A DNA stretch of 54,107 nt from Gammaproteobacteria bacterium. GTDB lineage: Bacteria; Pseudomonadota; Gammaproteobacteria; Pseudomonadales; Pseudohongiellaceae. The DNA lies in NCBI GenBank assembly GCA_028825335.1, contig JAPKAI010000007.1, forward strand, positions 1 to 54,107. The letters are read 5' to 3'. The position numbers were made by a program, and so were the translations under genes. Positions 24,103 to 30,912 of this stretch are shown here, one piece after another. The notes below the pieces were generated by a model. The model had not been told where the DNA came from and ran no database searches. It worked only from the letters and a program-made list of their open reading frames with translations. Numbering within the stretch: the first letter of the stretch is position 1; each line of letters starts with the position of its first letter.

Positions 24103-25332
24103 CTAGCTGAACAAATCGAAAGTGCCAAAGTCTCCACCTAACAAATTCGCGGAATCATTATGTCCTAGCCAACCCTGAGTAATTGTTTGGTAGACCTTTC
24201 TAAAATCTGTGGTGTAAGCAAGGTTGTCGCCGTCTGCCAATTTCGTAAGGCTAGGCAGTTCACCGTAGTGACCTCCCTTAACCTGGTTGCCGACAACGAA
24301 CATGGCATTGGCGGCCCCATGGTCGGTGCCGAGGCTTACGTTCTCGGGCACACGACGGCCGAATTCCGAAAAGATCATCAGCGCTACGTCATCGGCGCGA
24401 CCGATGCGTTCTAAGTCTCTTATGAATCCAGCTACGGCATCGGAAGTGTAAGTTAACAGCCTGCGGTGTAGGTTGTTCTGAAACACGTGTGTGTCGAAGG
24501 AATTATTTCTATAGGATACGTAGTAGAGGCTAGTTGGCATGTCGGCATCTAAAAGTGCGACGACCTTCTGCAGGTCCAGACCGTTCACGCCGTAATCGAC
24601 AGGCGAGTCGTATTTCGACCAGGCATCACGCACTAGTGCGGAGGCATCGTTGGCGCTACGGGCGATGTCCAATAGGAAGCGCCGCGAAGGATTTTCTACC
24701 TCGCCGATATTAGGCACTATATTTAGAGCCTCTTTTTCTGCGGCGAAGGCTTCGCGCATGAATCGATTCGGGTCATCGAACACAACCGGCACATGTTTCT
24801 CGCTTTTCACCGCCAATGATTGTTTAGAGCCGATGTTCACCAGATAGTTCGAGGGTGCGGATGGCGCTATCGAGTCGGCAAGCTTGCCAACCCAGCCATA
24901 CTCGTCGCCACTGTTAGGTGCTGCTGTGTGCCAGTAGGCCATTGAAGTGAAGTGAGAATAGGAAGGGTTCTCGTAACCGCAGCCATGAACAATGGCCATC
25001 TTGCCGTCTTTGTAGAGGCTCTCGAATCCAGCCATGCCAGGATTGAACCCAAAGTGGTCGTCGATGATGCGCAATTCGCTCTTGGGAATGCCTATATTCG
25101 GCCGCTGCCGATAATAGGCATCGTCGCCGTAGGGTACGACAGTATTCAAGCCATCGTTGCCGCCGGAGAGCTCGAGTATGACCAGTATCTTACCGCTAGC
25201 TGCAGCCTGTGCGGCGGCGGCTTGTGCTGCCTGCGCGAAGGCGGGCGGCACCATGCTCATCGCGCTGAGTCCAGCCATGCCAGCTAGTAGTTCGCGGCGA
25301 TCTAATGTTTTGTCTTTTCTATTTTTCTTCAT
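24103..25332 (-). CDS. DUF1501 protein, Tat-exported
   Basis: 409 residues. The N-terminus has a twin-arginine signal (L-D-R-R-E-L-L-A-G-M-A-G followed by a weakly hydrophobic run to P-A-F-A-Q). The body has the DUF1501 pattern: I-L-E-L-S-G-G-N-D-G-L-N-T-V-V-P, Y-R-Q-R-P-N-I-G-I, F-N-P-G-M-A-G-F, H-G-C-G-Y, S-F-D-T-H-V-F-Q and E-F-G-R-R-V-P-E-N-V-S-L-G-T-D-H-G. The fold is alkaline-phosphatase/sulfatase-like; no enzyme activity is established for this family. It is placed 43 bases downstream of the DUF1800 gene, its usual partner. GAGG precedes the ATG. Confidence 0.95.
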   Translation of the reverse strand: MKKNRKDKTLDRRELLAGMAGLSAMSMVPPAFAQAAQAAAAQAAASGKILVILELSGGNDGLNTVVPYGDDAYYRQRPNIGIPKSELRIIDDHFGFNPGMAGFESLYKDGKMAIVHGCGYENPSYSHFTSMAYWHTAAPNSGDEYGWVGKLADSIAPSAPSNYLVNIGSKQSLAVKSEKHVPVVFDDPNRFMREAFAAEKEALNIVPNIGEVENPSRRFLLDIARSANDASALVRDAWSKYDSPVDYGVNGLDLQKVVALLDADMPTSLYYVSYRNNSFDTHVFQNNLHRRLLTYTSDAVAGFIRDLERIGRADDVALMIFSEFGRRVPENVSLGTDHGAANAMFVVGNQVKGGHYGELPSLTKLADGDNLAYTTDFRKVYQTITQGWLGHNDSANLLGGDFGTFDLFS

Positions 25333-25375
25333 TGTCTGGCCTCATTATGTGTTCATGAGTTAACTATTTATACAA

Positions 25376-27211
25376 TTAGCCCAATTGAAACTCGGGCTGA
25401 CTCATTATCAGGTGCAGCACCAAGCGAAGCGAATCTTCCATATAAGATTGCGCTTCGGTAATACTCGTTGTGCCAAGATCTTCATCGAGGAAGCTTATCA
25501 ACATGCTTCTAGTACTATTATCTGGTTGTACGCGCATAAATCTGGCGAGCAGATAGTCAACCGCCTCGCTGGTATTCTCTACGCCATGCTCGTCAAGCAT
25601 TTTGCTGAGGTTTAGGCGGGCCGTGTGGCGTGGTATAGGTATTACTCTTTCGATCGCCATCTGCCAGCCACGAAAACTTCCGTAACGTGTATTAAATTCC
25701 TCGTCACGGTCCGCCAACATATTGGACTCCGCCATGATGCCTCCCTCGCCTAGCGAGGATGGCTGAGTAGCGGAGGTGATATCCAAACCTTGTCGAATAC
25801 GATCGGCAACGCTGCGAATCTCTGAGCTGCCATTGACTCTGTCTGGTGGTACAAAATTAATATCGGGAAACAACACGTCGCGAGCGAAATTACCGCGCTC
25901 TAGTAGCAGTCCCGGAGTCATCCAGCTGCGGCCACCGGCCCAGCCGGCTATAGTTGGTGGTCGAAATAATGATTGGCTGAGGGCGGCGGTTGCTTGGTTA
26001 AAATCAGGTACACCTGGCGTGCTTTCTAAACCAAGCTTTCGATAGGTAGAAACAGCCAGCTGCACCGGGCTCTTTATTTGACTGCCGACCGAAGGTGCGC
26101 TGTAAAAATCTTTGGAGATAAAGATAGCTTCCAAGAGAGTTGCTACGTCGTAGCCTGCGTCACGTAAAGTGTTGCCCAATTCTTGGGCTAGAGCTTGACT
26201 CAGCTCTTCTCGCACGAAGAACCGATAGATCTTGCTAGCGACATATTCTGCTGTAACCGGCTGTTCCATAATTAGGTCGATAATCTCGACGCCGTCGAAG
26301 TTTCCGCTGTGGTCTAGAAAAATCTTTACGTCGTTATCGTGCTGGTCCTCGTTGATCACGAAATCCAGGTCCACGTAGTTCCAGCCGGTAAAGGCGCGGG
26401 CGGCCTCGCGTATATCAGTCTCTGAGTAGTTACCAACGCCCATGGTGAATAATTCCATTATCTCGCGAGCGAAGTTTTCGTTCGGGGCGCCTTTCAGATT
26501 CACGCCAGCATCGAGGAAGGACAGCATGGCTGGGTCTTGCGCGACCGCCACCATGAGGTCACGAAAACTGCCTGTGCCCATCTCGTGAAACAGTTCTAAT
26601 TCATTCAACAGCTTGCGGTAGTCACGTACCTTGGTTTCATTGATTGCATAGTGGCCATGCCAGAACAAGGCCATTTTTTCTTGAAGTGGATTATTAGAGG
26701 CAACCATACGATCGGCCCACCAGTAGGCGACGCGATTGGTTTCCAATCTACTGGCTCTGAGCCAGTAGAAGAACTTATTTACAACCGGCTGCAGCCGGCG
26801 GTTTCCCTCAGGCTTTACTCTTACTCCCAAGGCCTGGCCGGTTGCTTTCGCTAGTTCTGTAGTCGCAGGGCGGCTGGGCGGGAAGGGTTCTAACCCAGCA
26901 TCGTGTATACCGGAGTGCTCAAAGGCTTGAAGATGGCGGTTATTTGCTGAGTCGAAATTCACTAGGCTGTTCACTGCCGCTTTTGGGGACAGGGCTGCTA
27001 GTGCTTCTATTTGTGCGGGCGTCCCACCAAAGCCAGCGCGTTCTAGCAGATGAGCAGCAGTTTCGTAGTTCCAGTCTGCGTTTGCGATCGGGGCGAGGTC
27101 ATCCTGCCAAGAGGCAAGACCCGCCAGTTGCGCCGTGCCTGCGTTGGACAGCAGAGCCAGTGTAATGCTTGTAATAGCTAAGCAAGCGAATCGATTCGGT
27201 GCGCGAAGCAT
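25376..27211 (-). CDS. DUF1800 exported protein
   Basis: 611 residues from the ATG at 27211, chosen because GGAG lies eight bases before it (the in-frame GTG seven codons earlier is not needed). A signal peptide ends ...LSNAGTAQ. DUF1800 features: A-A-H-L-L-E-R-A-G-F-G-G-T, M-A-L-F-W-H-G-H-Y-A-I, M-L-S-F-L-D-A-G-V-N, N-E-N-F-A-R-E-I-M-E-L-F-T-M-G, A-R-A-F-T-G-W-N and R-S-W-M-T-P. The DUF1800-DUF1501 pair is widespread in marine bacteria as a two-gene operon; the role is unknown, perhaps a periplasmic complex in which the DUF1501 partner is Tat-folded. Confidence 0.95.
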   Translation of the reverse strand: MLRAPNRFACLAITSITLALLSNAGTAQLAGLASWQDDLAPIANADWNYETAAHLLERAGFGGTPAQIEALAALSPKAAVNSLVNFDSANNRHLQAFEHSGIHDAGLEPFPPSRPATTELAKATGQALGVRVKPEGNRRLQPVVNKFFYWLRASRLETNRVAYWWADRMVASNNPLQEKMALFWHGHYAINETKVRDYRKLLNELELFHEMGTGSFRDLMVAVAQDPAMLSFLDAGVNLKGAPNENFAREIMELFTMGVGNYSETDIREAARAFTGWNYVDLDFVINEDQHDNDVKIFLDHSGNFDGVEIIDLIMEQPVTAEYVASKIYRFFVREELSQALAQELGNTLRDAGYDVATLLEAIFISKDFYSAPSVGSQIKSPVQLAVSTYRKLGLESTPGVPDFNQATAALSQSLFRPPTIAGWAGGRSWMTPGLLLERGNFARDVLFPDINFVPPDRVNGSSEIRSVADRIRQGLDITSATQPSSLGEGGIMAESNMLADRDEEFNTRYGSFRGWQMAIERVIPIPRHTARLNLSKMLDEHGVENTSEAVDYLLARFMRVQPDNSTRSMLISFLDEDLGTTSITEAQSYMEDSLRLVLHLIMSQPEFQLG

Positions 27212-27425
27212 GGGGAAATCTCCAGATGTCACTGTAAAGTCACACTTTATTCTATTTTTCGAAGGGGGGACAGGTTGCGTTATTCTATTTTTTTGGATTC
27301 GCCTTGCTGGAGCAGCAATAAAACGGTTCTACGCTGGGTTCACTCTCTTTTTGTTTTCCTTCTCTGCTTGCGTAAGAATGCAAATACGGTGATTCTAGAA
27401 ACTCCACTACGAGAGGAAAGATAAT

Positions 27426-29225
27426 ATGTTGGGAAAAATACGACTGGCGTCTTGCTTACTGGTTGCCCTAGTGCTCATTGGTAATGCGCAAGCGCAGAGC
27501 CAAACACAAATTGATTTCCGTCCACTCACCCAAGAAATGCTGAACAATCCCGATCCTGAAGATTGGCTGATGTGGCGCGGCGGTTATAACAATTGGGGTT
27601 ATAGTCCGCTGGATCAGATCAATCGTGAAAATGTTGATCAATTACGCCTAGCCTGGTCTTGGTCGTTCGCTCCAGCAGCCCTTGGCTCCAACGGTATGCA
27701 GGTGGAGCCCACTGTCTACGATGGCATTATGTACATACGCCATTCCGATGAGAAATATTCTGCCCATAATGCCGCTACTGGAGATTTGATTTGGCAATAC
27801 TCTCGCCCCCTGCCAACACAAATCGTTGCAGGTGATACCCGCTTAACAATGCACAGGGGTAGGGGGGTATTCATCTATGAAGATAAGCTAATCTCCCATG
27901 CCACCGACGGTACCTTGTTTGCGCTGAACCCAAGCACAGGAGCGCTTTTATGGGAATCGATTATGACCGATTTCCGCAGCGGTGCGCAGCCCAGTGGTGC
28001 GCCGGTGGCGTTTGGTGGTTCGGTAGTTGTTCCCTATAACTGCACCGCATGGACAGCCGCTGATCCCTGCCATATGTCAGCTTATGATGCAGACAATGGC
28101 GGCTTGCTTTGGCGCTGGTATACCAGCCCTACGGCACAGGACCCTATGCACAGCACATGGGGAGATGAGCCGCAGATTTATCCCCTAGAGCGCCGTCGTA
28201 ATATGTCGCCTTGGATGACTCCGGCGGTAGACAGCGAGCGCGGCTTGTTTATTTTTGGTGTTGGATCCAGTGCGCCACAACAACCTCAGCTTGCCGGTAC
28301 TAATGGCGAATGGCCTGACCGCCTGTATCAAGGTTCAACCGTGGCATTGGATCACCGCACCGGCGCATTGGTGTGGTGGGCTCAGCATCATTCTGATATG
28401 TGGAACGATGATTCTGTCTATGATCGAATTCTCGTCGATGCGAAACTAAATCCCGGCGCACCAAATTCGCTGGGCCAAAATCCAGATATCGATCCTGATC
28501 AGACTCGCGAATTAGTTATTGGTTCTTTTTCTAAGGACGCAATTTTTTATGTCTATGACAGAACCGACGGTAGTTTTCTGTACGCACGACCAACCGCGTA
28601 TCAGAATGTCATCCGCAGTTACGACGGTGCAACAGGGGCATACACTACCGAACCTGATGCAATTATGATTGCCGAAGAAGGCAGAGAGGCAACTATTTGT
28701 CGAGAGAACAGACAGATCCCTCAGGGTGCCTACAGTCCTTTAACGAATGCTTACTATGTGCCGGCTTTCAACGGTCCTTGCTCGGTGATGTCTATGCGCT
28801 CCACTGAGCCCACAATTGAAACAGGTTACAACACCACTTACAGCGCCACTGTACCGAGTCCCGCCGCACAGCTTGGTCAACCGGAAGCGATCGATGTGAC
28901 TACTGGCAAGACTCTATGGCGACTCGAGCGAGAAACGCCGTTATATGGCATGTTAACCACCGGCGGTGGCCTGTTATTCGCGGCGGACACCAATAGACGT
29001 TTTCACGCCATCGACCAGTGGACTGGAGAAACGCTTTGGCAGACCATATTGAATGGTGCCAGCGATATGGCGCCGATTTCCTTCGCAGTGGACGGTAGAC
29101 AATTTGTCGCAGTGATAGCACCAAGTGGAACTCAGGCAGCGGCGCAGCATGCTGGGCAATTGGGGTTGCCCTCGCTTACCGGGCTGCACAATGTTGGACA
29201 TACAATGTTCGTATATGCGCTTTAG
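27426..29225 (+). CDS. PQQ-dependent dehydrogenase (second copy)
   Basis: 599 residues, signal peptide (...LIGNAQAQ), GAGG before the ATG. It parallels the gene at 12145: W-L-M-W-R-G-G-Y-N-N-W, P-L-D-Q-I-N-R-E-N-V, D-A-D-N-G-G-L-L-W, H-R-T-G-A-L-V-W-W, T-G-K-T-L-W and W-T-G-E-T-L-W blades. The Trp-docking repeats and Y-S-P-L at the substrate face are family-typical. W-N-D-D near residue 332 is the likely catalytic Asp region; the Cys pair is spaced C-x8-C instead of vicinal. Stands apart from cytochrome c genes. Periplasmic oxidation of an unknown alcohol or sugar, coupled to quinone or a cytochrome encoded elsewhere. Confidence 0.9.
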   Translation: MLGKIRLASCLLVALVLIGNAQAQSQTQIDFRPLTQEMLNNPDPEDWLMWRGGYNNWGYSPLDQINRENVDQLRLAWSWSFAPAALGSNGMQVEPTVYDGIMYIRHSDEKYSAHNAATGDLIWQYSRPLPTQIVAGDTRLTMHRGRGVFIYEDKLISHATDGTLFALNPSTGALLWESIMTDFRSGAQPSGAPVAFGGSVVVPYNCTAWTAADPCHMSAYDADNGGLLWRWYTSPTAQDPMHSTWGDEPQIYPLERRRNMSPWMTPAVDSERGLFIFGVGSSAPQQPQLAGTNGEWPDRLYQGSTVALDHRTGALVWWAQHHSDMWNDDSVYDRILVDAKLNPGAPNSLGQNPDIDPDQTRELVIGSFSKDAIFYVYDRTDGSFLYARPTAYQNVIRSYDGATGAYTTEPDAIMIAEEGREATICRENRQIPQGAYSPLTNAYYVPAFNGPCSVMSMRSTEPTIETGYNTTYSATVPSPAAQLGQPEAIDVTTGKTLWRLERETPLYGMLTTGGGLLFAADTNRRFHAIDQWTGETLWQTILNGASDMAPISFAVDGRQFVAVIAPSGTQAAAQHAGQLGLPSLTGLHNVGHTMFVYAL

Positions 29226-29365
29226 AGGAGAATGGCGTAGGTAATACGGTGAAGGAAAGAGGGAATGTGAATTAGTTAGAGCTACTAAGCTCAGGTAGAT
29301 ACCCTTACAGTAAAAGAATAACTGTGCCCTATTCTTTTACAAGAAACGTGATAGGATTCTTTTGT

Positions 29366-30514
29366 ATGAGAACATTAATTCTAAATGTGATTGGGCGCGT
29401 TATTTGCGCAACCTTGCTGCTTAGTTTATCTGCTCTAGCGGCGGCACAAGGCAGAGCTGTGATAGAGGTAGCTACCTTAGGCCCGCAAATTGGCGACCCT
29501 GTTCCCTCGTTCAGCCTCAGGGACCAGCATGGTCAAAATCAAACTCTGGAATCTATCGCCGGTACGAACGGCACCATGCTGTTGTTCCACCGTTCCGCGG
29601 ATTGGTGACCTTACTGCAAAGCGCAACTCGTGGAGTTGCAGGACCGTCTCGAAGAACTCAATGCTTCTGGCATTGGTGTGGCCGCTATTAGTTATGATTC
29701 CCCAGAAGTTCTCGCTGAGTTTGCGCAGCGCCGAGGCATCACCTTTGCCCTACTCGCAGACATTGATTCTACCGCCATTACCGATTTTGGCATTCTCAAT
29801 ACTGTGGCCGAGGAAGGTCTCGGCCCCAACGGCGACGATCCCGAAGTGGTAGCCGATGTTGCAAAATATGTGTCCATGTTTGGCGCCAGTAACTTGATTG
29901 TTGGAACGCCGTATCCCGGCACCTTTATGCTGGATGCTGGCGGCAGGGTTAGCGCTAGATTTTTCGAGGAGTTCTATCGGGAACGCAATACAACGTCAAA
30001 TGTGATGCTGAAGATTGGTATCGGCGTCTCGCCGGTTGCCGCGATTGAGGGTTCCACGGCACAACTAAAATTTACGGCCTATCCGAGTAATTCTTCGATA
30101 ACAGTAGGTACGCGCTTTTCGGTCGCTGTGGACGTAGTACCAAATACAGCTATGCATGTGTATGCACCGGGTGCGGAGACTATGGGTTATAAAGTAATCG
30201 GTCTAAGTTTCGAGCCAGATGAATTGCTGCGGTTCGAGCCGGTGGAATTTCCAGAATCCGAAATCTATCATTTCAAGCCGCTTGATGAATATGTTCCGGT
30301 TTTTCAGCAGCCTTTCACCTTGCTGCAGGAGATCGTGGTCGATGCTTCTGAGACATCCGAGGGGATTATGAGCCAGATGGATACACTGACACTGTCCGGT
30401 ACTTTCCAGTTCCAAGCTTGTGACGATGCTATCTGCTATTTACCGACTAGCCTCCCGGTGTCTCTGACACTGGACATCGACAACCCCGATCGGCAAAGGG
30501 CGAATTCTCGATAA
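29366..30514 (+). CDS. Exported redoxin with in-frame TGA at the active-site Cys: candidate selenoprotein, with DsbD-alpha-like C-terminal domain
   Basis: One continuous frame of 382 residues from ATG 29366 (AGGA upstream; signal peptide ...SLSALAAAQ), interrupted only by TGA at 29606-29608, codon 81. Around it the frame reads R-S-A-D-W-[TGA]-P-Y-C-K-A-Q-L, so TGA replaces the first Cys of W-C-P-Y-C, with Cys84 as partner. AhpC/TSA-type thioredoxin-fold features continue (A-A-I-S-Y-D-S-P-E, F-A-L-L-A-D, P-G-T-F-M-L-D-A-G-G). Residues ~220-380 resemble the DsbD N-terminal (alpha) domain, ending F-Q-A-C-D-D-A-I-C-Y-L-P with Cys352/Cys357. If TGA means selenocysteine, this is a periplasmic peroxidase or thiol-disulfide enzyme; if not, it is a nonsense-mutated gene split into 29366-29608 and a fragment from the GTG at 29630. 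Confidence 0.75.
29604..29645 (+). promoter_or_regulatory. Putative bacterial SECIS hairpin
   Basis: A perfect 7-bp stem, GCAACTC (29623-29629) with GAGTTGC (29633-29639), closes a GTG loop (29630-29632). The loop begins 21 bases after the TGA and its first base is G, which fits the reported bacterial SECIS consensus for spacing and loop G. Outer pairs CCT (29609-29611)/AGG (29640-29642) and GGT (29604-29606)/ACC (29643-29645) can extend it to include the TGA. An alternative pairing CTGCAA/TTGCAG competes with part of it. The hairpin overlaps codons, so it could also be chance. Confidence 0.55.
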
Positions 30515-30585
30515 TTGCTGAACAAATTCGTGTTTTTTCCTCCTGGTAACAACATCCAAGACGGTTTGTAAGAATTTCTGCTTAT

Positions 30586-30912
30586 TCATTCTGACTCTCC
30601 CGACTCATCTAGCCCTCGGTCTAAGTGGATTGTGGGCGGGGTGGTGAAATATTCTCCCAGGATTTCGCAGTCCCCCTGCGCAGTATGCTACTCGTAGTAT
30701 TCCTGAAAGCGTCGTTCTGACTCCCACTTGTCTATGAAGAGTACCTCCCCGGGTTTTTCTTGATCGACAGAGACATCGAAGCTTTTATTTCCAGAAAAGT
30801 TTCGACTGATCTCAAATCCGCCATGGATAACTGCTAAAAATCCTTCGACTTTTTCTGTCTGGATGGACAGTTCTGAGGTGATGAGCAAGGACAGCGCTAT
30901 GGGTATAGGCAT
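30586..30912 (-). pseudogene. ABM-domain monooxygenase with premature amber stop
   Basis: ATG at 30912 has AGGAAAA about 8 bases upstream. The frame gives an ABM-type domain (F-L-A-V-I-H-G-G-F-E, F-S-G-N-K-S-F-D-V, V-L-F-I-D-K-W-E-S-E-R-R-F-Q-E-Y-Y-E) and then meets TAG at 30690-30688. Beyond it the same frame continues H-T-A-Q-G-D-C-E-I-L-G-E-Y-F-T-T-P-P to TGA at 30586. Relatives have Trp at this point (Y-x-x-W-R/H), so TGG to TAG is the simplest change. The protein would be 108 residues if repaired. It lies convergent with the redoxin gene and is the second broken ABM gene in the window, after 18420-18748. Confidence 0.7.

Follow-up and report, generated by a model that had tools for sequence, protein, structure and literature searches.

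One gene in the 54,107 nt of DNA analysed here (the window; assembly GCA_028825335.1, contig JAPKAI010000007.1, Gammaproteobacteria bacterium of the Pseudohongiellaceae) is almost certainly a genuine selenoprotein gene, and its product joins a putative Sec redoxin to a DsbD-alpha-like domain in a two-part build that appears undescribed. The reading frame starts with the ATG at 29366, runs for 80 codons to an in-frame TGA, and ends with the TAA at 30512-30514 (Table 1); with the TGA read as Sec, the product shows a W-U-P-Y-C motif. A sequence-only reading of this DNA had described the frame as W-[TGA]-P-Y-C-K-A-Q-L followed by 301 further codons, which the sequence bears out. It had also placed the TGA at the Cys of a WCPYC motif; the codon does stand for the first residue of a CxxC pair, and 'resolving-pair Cys' was loose wording for it. 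An in-frame GTG at 29324 is a possible alternative start; the alignment with the two nearest relatives begins at the ATG at 29366. The product is probably exported, as judged from an N-terminus that is hydrophobic and modelled as a helix. The plain table 11 reading splits the gene into a 94-aa and a 294-aa frame, and gene callers that treat TGA as a stop thereby drop its active site.

Table 1. Features of the selenoprotein gene and its product, with positions in the window.
Feature	Position	Strand	Remarks
Selenoprotein gene	29366..30514	+	382 residues, Sec at 81
Probable signal peptide, residues 1-27	29366..29446	+	hydrophobicity; helix 2-25 in predicted model
AhpC/TSA (PF00578) redoxin domain, residues 42-196	29489..29953	+	92.9 bits, cut-off 26
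TGA, Sec codon 81	29606..29608	+	
Cys84, partner of Sec81, at the AhpE peroxidatic Cys position	29615..29617	+	
SECIS-like hairpin, 7 bp stem, GCAACTC-GTG-GAGTTGC	29623..29639	+	
GUG apical loop, 21 nt after the TGA	29630..29632	+	
Pro184, at the AhpE catalytic Arg116 position	29915..29917	+	
DsbD-alpha/ScsB-like domain, from residue 222	30029..30511	+	
Cys352	30419..30421	+	57/57 aligned rows
Cys357	30434..30436	+	56/57 aligned rows

The scan of species genomes gave 155 candidate stretches, among which 128 were relatives, and the best 80 of the 128 were kept. As L087 and L091 do not reach codon 81, this codon was counted in 78 of the best 80 loci. It was TGA in 72 and Cys in six (TGC in four, TGT in two), which is the outcome of the homologue alignment for Cys versus TGA that the sequence-only reading had proposed. 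In the 72 TGA loci, the codon-81 TGA was the sole stop within the matched stretch; the Cys locus L090 showed a TAG close to its end. Six search peptides were used in the scan, and one of them spelled the motif with Cys. Such a peptide would favour Cys forms, so TGA was not enriched by the method.

Alignment A1 had 57 rows: besides the window, these were 51 TGA loci (out of 72) and five Cys loci (out of six); L090 was omitted for its TAG, and the other TGA loci were omitted by choice for size or as partial. The aligned rows were 45-85% identical to the window protein on both sides of the TGA, and the nearest relative among the best 80 loci, L017, was 85% identical. The Sec81, Cys84, and Cys352 columns were kept in 57/57 rows and the Cys357 column in 56/57. 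Among the A1 columns with at least five Cys, only columns 81, 84, 352, and 357 were kept in nearly all rows. In the tree, one branch (support 100/99) separated the 52 Sec rows from five long-branched Cys rows; the root is the midpoint, and gain versus loss of Sec is not readable from the tree.

The bacterial SECIS model, as given in the available text of PMC13188914, limits the loop to 3-9 nt, the stem to 4-16 bp, and the distance from the UGA to 16-37 nt, with a G in the first two loop positions and an MFE of -7.5 kcal/mol or lower. The hairpin downstream of codon 81 lay inside every limit, with a 3 nt GUG loop, 7 bp, a distance of 21 nt, and -9.2 kcal/mol. Its codons were counted in 73 TGA rows (the window and 72 loci; 65 distinct) and compared with the six Cys rows. 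Leu88 was CTC in 73/73 TGA rows, versus CTT (1), CTG (3), and ATG (2) in the Cys rows. Val89 was GTG in 72 TGA rows and GTC in one, versus GTC (2), CTG (2), GTT (1), and GCG (1), and Glu90 was GAG in 72 and GAN in one, versus GAC (1), GAG (3), and GAA (2). Gln87 and Leu91 covaried silently, with CAA..TTG in 30 rows, CAG..CTG in 38, CAG..TTG (a G-U pair) in five, and CAA..CTG in none. The outermost pair was broken in 2/73 TGA rows and reversed to C-G in 1/73. Codon entropy, compared across the 126 columns where the 52 Sec rows conserve the amino acid, was lowest at residues 88, 90, 89, and 86.

The covariation test used 41 TGA rows, all distinct and hand-chosen from the 73, with 500 shuffles. 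Stem cells paired in 99.3% of cases, and partners slid by 1-3 columns paired in 15-56%. None of the 500 shuffles reached the observed pairing percentage or covariation score, whereas for the two stricter measures 19 reached the number of doubly changed pairs and 33 that of further pair types. The covariation does not represent many independent events, because nearly all of it lies in one column pair inherited by many related rows. RNAalifold recovered the same hairpin from the 41 rows. The energy z value was -0.17 over 42 nt, where the hairpin is the centroid and not the minimum-energy fold, and -2.14 over 28 nt, and several rows showed a different minimum-energy fold over 48 nt. Energy alone is not convincing, so the case for the hairpin rests on conservation and covariation. 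An Rfam scan of 29300-30600 with E up to 10 gave one irrelevant weak match only. To judge from these codon patterns, the TGA rows maintain the hairpin through synonymous sites that do not vary and through one pair that covaries without changing the protein, and the Cys rows do not maintain it.

The window belongs to a MAG of 2.97 Mb in 195 contigs that is 93% complete. The selA, selB, selC, and selD genes, which had been proposed as a genome-wide check, were all present in this same assembly: SelA (523 bits), SelB (379 bits), and SelD (284 bits) scored above cut-off, and tRNA-Sec with the anticodon tca (UCA) scored 68.9 bits against the Rfam cut-off of 47. SelD makes up the C-terminal portion of a 757-aa reading frame (L015 256-2529, plus strand, contig C191); the N-terminal half of this frame resembles an FAD/NAD oxidoreductase, and the whole is similar, in Cys form, to the known Ndh-SelD fusion in the accessible text of PMC2398784. 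From the 80 loci, 28 genomes were picked (22 TGA-form and all six Cys-form; their completeness is not stated), and selA was found in 21/22 TGA-form versus 0/6 Cys-form genomes. The sole TGA-form genome without a SelA match is the one holding L053. The Sec machinery, the TGA/Cys pairs, the silently constrained hairpin, and the co-occurrence with selA all agree with the UxxC selenoredoxin that had been claimed from the letters alone. The window's genome has two more TGA redoxins. The second, L098 (1348-1935, minus strand, contig C5), is a 195-aa W-U-P-F-C protein with PF00578 and without the C-terminal DsbD-like domain. The third, L100 (1360-1968, minus strand, contig C195), is peroxiredoxin-like, with F-T-G-G-U (TxxU) and N-R-W-T, and judged by these motifs it is probably of peroxidase type.

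The N-terminal half of the window protein showed a peroxiredoxin fold (AlphaFold2, mean pLDDT 89.2), with AhpE and Bcp-type entries at Z ~18. Its U-P-Y-C motif, together with PF00578 above cut-off, gives it both features of the Prx-like UxxC selenoproteins. In the profile alignment with AhpE, Sec81 fell on the Thr of the TxxC motif, Cys84 matched the peroxidatic Cys, and Arg116 was opposite Pro184, a register that the R116A entry 4xih bears out. A TxxC/TxxU motif with catalytic Thr was not found, the Thr position being that of Sec81, and a catalytic Arg equivalent to AhpE Arg116 was not found, this position being that of Pro184. Pro184 was invariant in A1 (57/57 rows) and may be a cis-proline facing the CxxC, as in thioredoxins. 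The placement of Sec81, Cys84, and Pro184 against AhpE suggests a thioredoxin-like active site on a peroxiredoxin scaffold.

As the peroxiredoxin Thr and Arg positions are occupied by Sec and Pro, thiol-disulfide chemistry appears likelier for the window protein than classical peroxidase chemistry. An exported Sec-dependent peroxidase, in which Sec81 (or Cys84) would reduce peroxides and the C-terminal Cys pair would resolve or recycle the enzyme, is therefore an unlikely reading, although peroxiredoxins are the best fold matches for the N-terminal half and Cys84 aligns with the peroxidatic Cys. Besides the substituted Thr and Arg positions, the genome's other TGA peroxiredoxin argues against it: L100 keeps F-T-G-G-U and the Arg of N-R-W-T, so L100 looks peroxidase-type and the window protein does not.

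The C-terminal half, modelled alone, reached a pLDDT of 91.7. Its top structural match was the ScsB N-terminal domain (Z 13.1, 2.2 A, 125 aligned), DsbD-alpha entries scored Z 10.0-11.4, ranks 1-11 were all ScsB or DsbD N-terminal domains, and the next entry had Z 9.2. By this comparison the modelled half has the DsbD-alpha fold. Foldseek gave a weaker result with the same model: ScsB again came first, but at a modest score (E 2.8e-4, TM 0.57), and unrelated entries followed closely. PF11412 (DsbD_N) matched 57/57 rows at E up to 0.1, with a best value of 3.7e-9. The window sequence alone stayed under Pfam's DsbD_N cut-off (21.6 and 18.8 versus 25), and querying the PDB by sequence with this domain returned nothing useful, only a match at E 0.84.

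In a Sec oxidoreductase or isomerase, the C-terminal domain might instead serve to bind a substrate or partner, its disulfide being structural and no electrons being relayed through it. Immunoglobulin-like folds often only bind partners, and the transfer between the two domains of the window protein is something that we infer. This explanation is rather improbable, more so than the peroxidase, as the matching DsbD/ScsB domain is redox and its Cys pair is conserved here (Cys352 in 57/57, Cys357 in 56/57 rows). The weakest explanation, a pseudogene or a sequencing or assembly error with the Cys codon mutated to TGA, was rejected as having practically no probability: the sequence-only reading had raised a TGC/TGT to TGA mutation, and six Cys homologues and the MAG assembly could speak for it, but the same TGA is shared by 72 of 78 related loci with no further stop in the matched stretch, the hairpin is silently constrained, the Sec machinery is present, and selA co-occurs.

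We consider it reasonably probable that the window protein is an exported reductase that uses Sec and relays electrons to Sec81-Cys84 through a DsbD-type acceptor domain of its own. At codon 81, SelB and tRNA-Sec almost certainly insert Sec in response to UGA, guided by the hairpin 21 nt downstream. The chain would then carry two redox centres, Sec81-Cys84 on the peroxiredoxin-fold domain and Cys352-Cys357 on the DsbD-alpha/ScsB-like domain. A DsbD/ScsB-type membrane reductase may deliver electrons to Cys352-Cys357, from where they would pass within the same chain to Sec81-Cys84, and Sec81 would reduce an envelope substrate, with a disulfide or other oxidised thiol likelier than a peroxide. 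The UGA decoding rests on sequence evidence, and the relay, its direction, and the substrate are what we infer.

In the available text of PMC7347389, the DsbD alpha-type domain passes electrons from the C-terminal domain to the thioredoxin-fold proteins DsbC, CcmG, and DsbG, and by analogy the redoxin half could be a client of the fused DsbD-alpha-like domain. The window's genome encodes an 818-aa DsbD_N/DsbD_TM/Thioredoxin_7 protein with a C-x3-C Cys pair, which could supply electrons to the window protein. DsbD_TM was found in 26/28 genomes (20/22 TGA-form, 6/6 Cys-form); as it was also found in 10/14 controls, its occurrence is permissive only. More tentatively, an exported Sec redoxin may have captured a DsbD/ScsB alpha domain, which would give a one-chain Sec relay from cytoplasmic electrons to envelope substrates and an undescribed family in Pseudomonadota, Acidobacteriota, and Gemmatimonadota; we regard this as possible but doubtful. 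If the fusion works as a relay, it illustrates how an easily oxidised selenol could stay reduced in the envelope, namely by bringing along an electron-acceptor domain. Nature also offers a comparison of Sec with Cys in a single enzyme, through the TGA form and the Cys form, which occur in selA-bearing and selA-lacking genomes.

The 80 loci came from Gammaproteobacteria or other Pseudomonadota, Acidobacteriota, and Gemmatimonadota, all from metagenome or single-cell assemblies according to their records. In the class sample, 1/274 genomes matched at E 1e-40, which was the window's own, and in the order sample 32/293 genomes matched at E 1e-20, nearly all across the redoxin half only. The full-length form is rare within both samples. 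Among the 35 order-sample matches listed, one TGA was present in 20 and none in 15, with TGA counted regardless of motif. A genome of the same order holds L104, a 411-aa frame with one TGA that matches profile positions 27-308 and is possibly a divergent two-domain relative. Three two-domain selenoprotein copies (L029, L070, and L083) lie on contig OX638378.1, an uncultured Pseudohongiella chromosome. Plasmid records gave 53 protein-level matches, none spanning over 80% of the query; among the 20 of 53 listed, identity was 23-33% and the redoxin half was covered. No constant neighbour gene hinting at a substrate was found: across 81 stretches, many of which were cut short, the commonest families near the gene, itself excluded, occurred in 24, 23, and 17. 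Upstream of the gene, at 24103-29225, the window holds DUF1501 and DUF1800 genes and a PQQ-type beta-propeller protein. PQQ-type proteins were present within the fetched flanks of 23/81 stretches, the window included.

A UxxC selenoprotein with an AhpC/TSA domain is an already known kind. In their available parts, PMC1088965 reports a Prx-like family in which UXXC replaces TXXU, PMC2398784 lists Prx-like 1 (PF00578, UxxC, 225 selenoproteins) along with fusions of other families, and PMC9312934 and PMC13188914 (Table 1) list Prx-like thiol:disulfide oxidoreductases. The protein had been put forward as a candidate new selenoprotein, which holds only in part: the UxxC PF00578 class is listed already, and what may be new is the DsbD-N-like fusion, overlooked at that stage. 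No description of a UxxC redoxin fused to a DsbD-alpha-like domain was found in the openly accessible article text searched, and for the terms searched the accessible text of PMC12013277 does not name such a fusion. Members of the two-domain family may sit unrecognised in published selenoprotein sets. At E 0.01, 11 NCBIfam models matched the window protein, none above its curated cut-off (SelL_rel_redox, 49.7 versus 120).

With the Prx-like UxxC class, the window protein shares the AhpC/TSA domain, UxxC as against the TxxU of Sec-peroxiredoxins, and a bSECIS-type hairpin; the class descriptions, in the parts available, name no DsbD-like C-terminal domain, whereas the window protein has one. 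The GOS fusions in the accessible text of PMC2398784 (Prx-like 3/Unknown_3 and others) likewise join a redoxin to a second domain with conserved Cys. Compared by description only, Unknown_3 has three conserved Cys with a CxxC, and the C-terminal domain of the window protein has two, in C-x4-C. TsoB (NF045694), as entered in Table 1 of PMC13188914, is a selenoprotein with a DsbD-like part, as is the window protein, but differs in its rhodanese partner, its UxxxxU motif, and its two Sec; NF045694 was absent from the NCBIfam matches at E 0.01. The DsbD-alpha and ScsB N-terminal domains share with the C-terminal half the fold and a reactive-looking Cys pair, whose spacing is C-x4-C in the window protein, C103-C109 in E. 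coli DsbD (available text of PMC7347389), and C-x3-C in the genome's DsbD-like protein. In DsbD and ScsB this domain sits within a membrane reductase, whereas in the window protein it stands behind a Sec redoxin, without the membrane hub.
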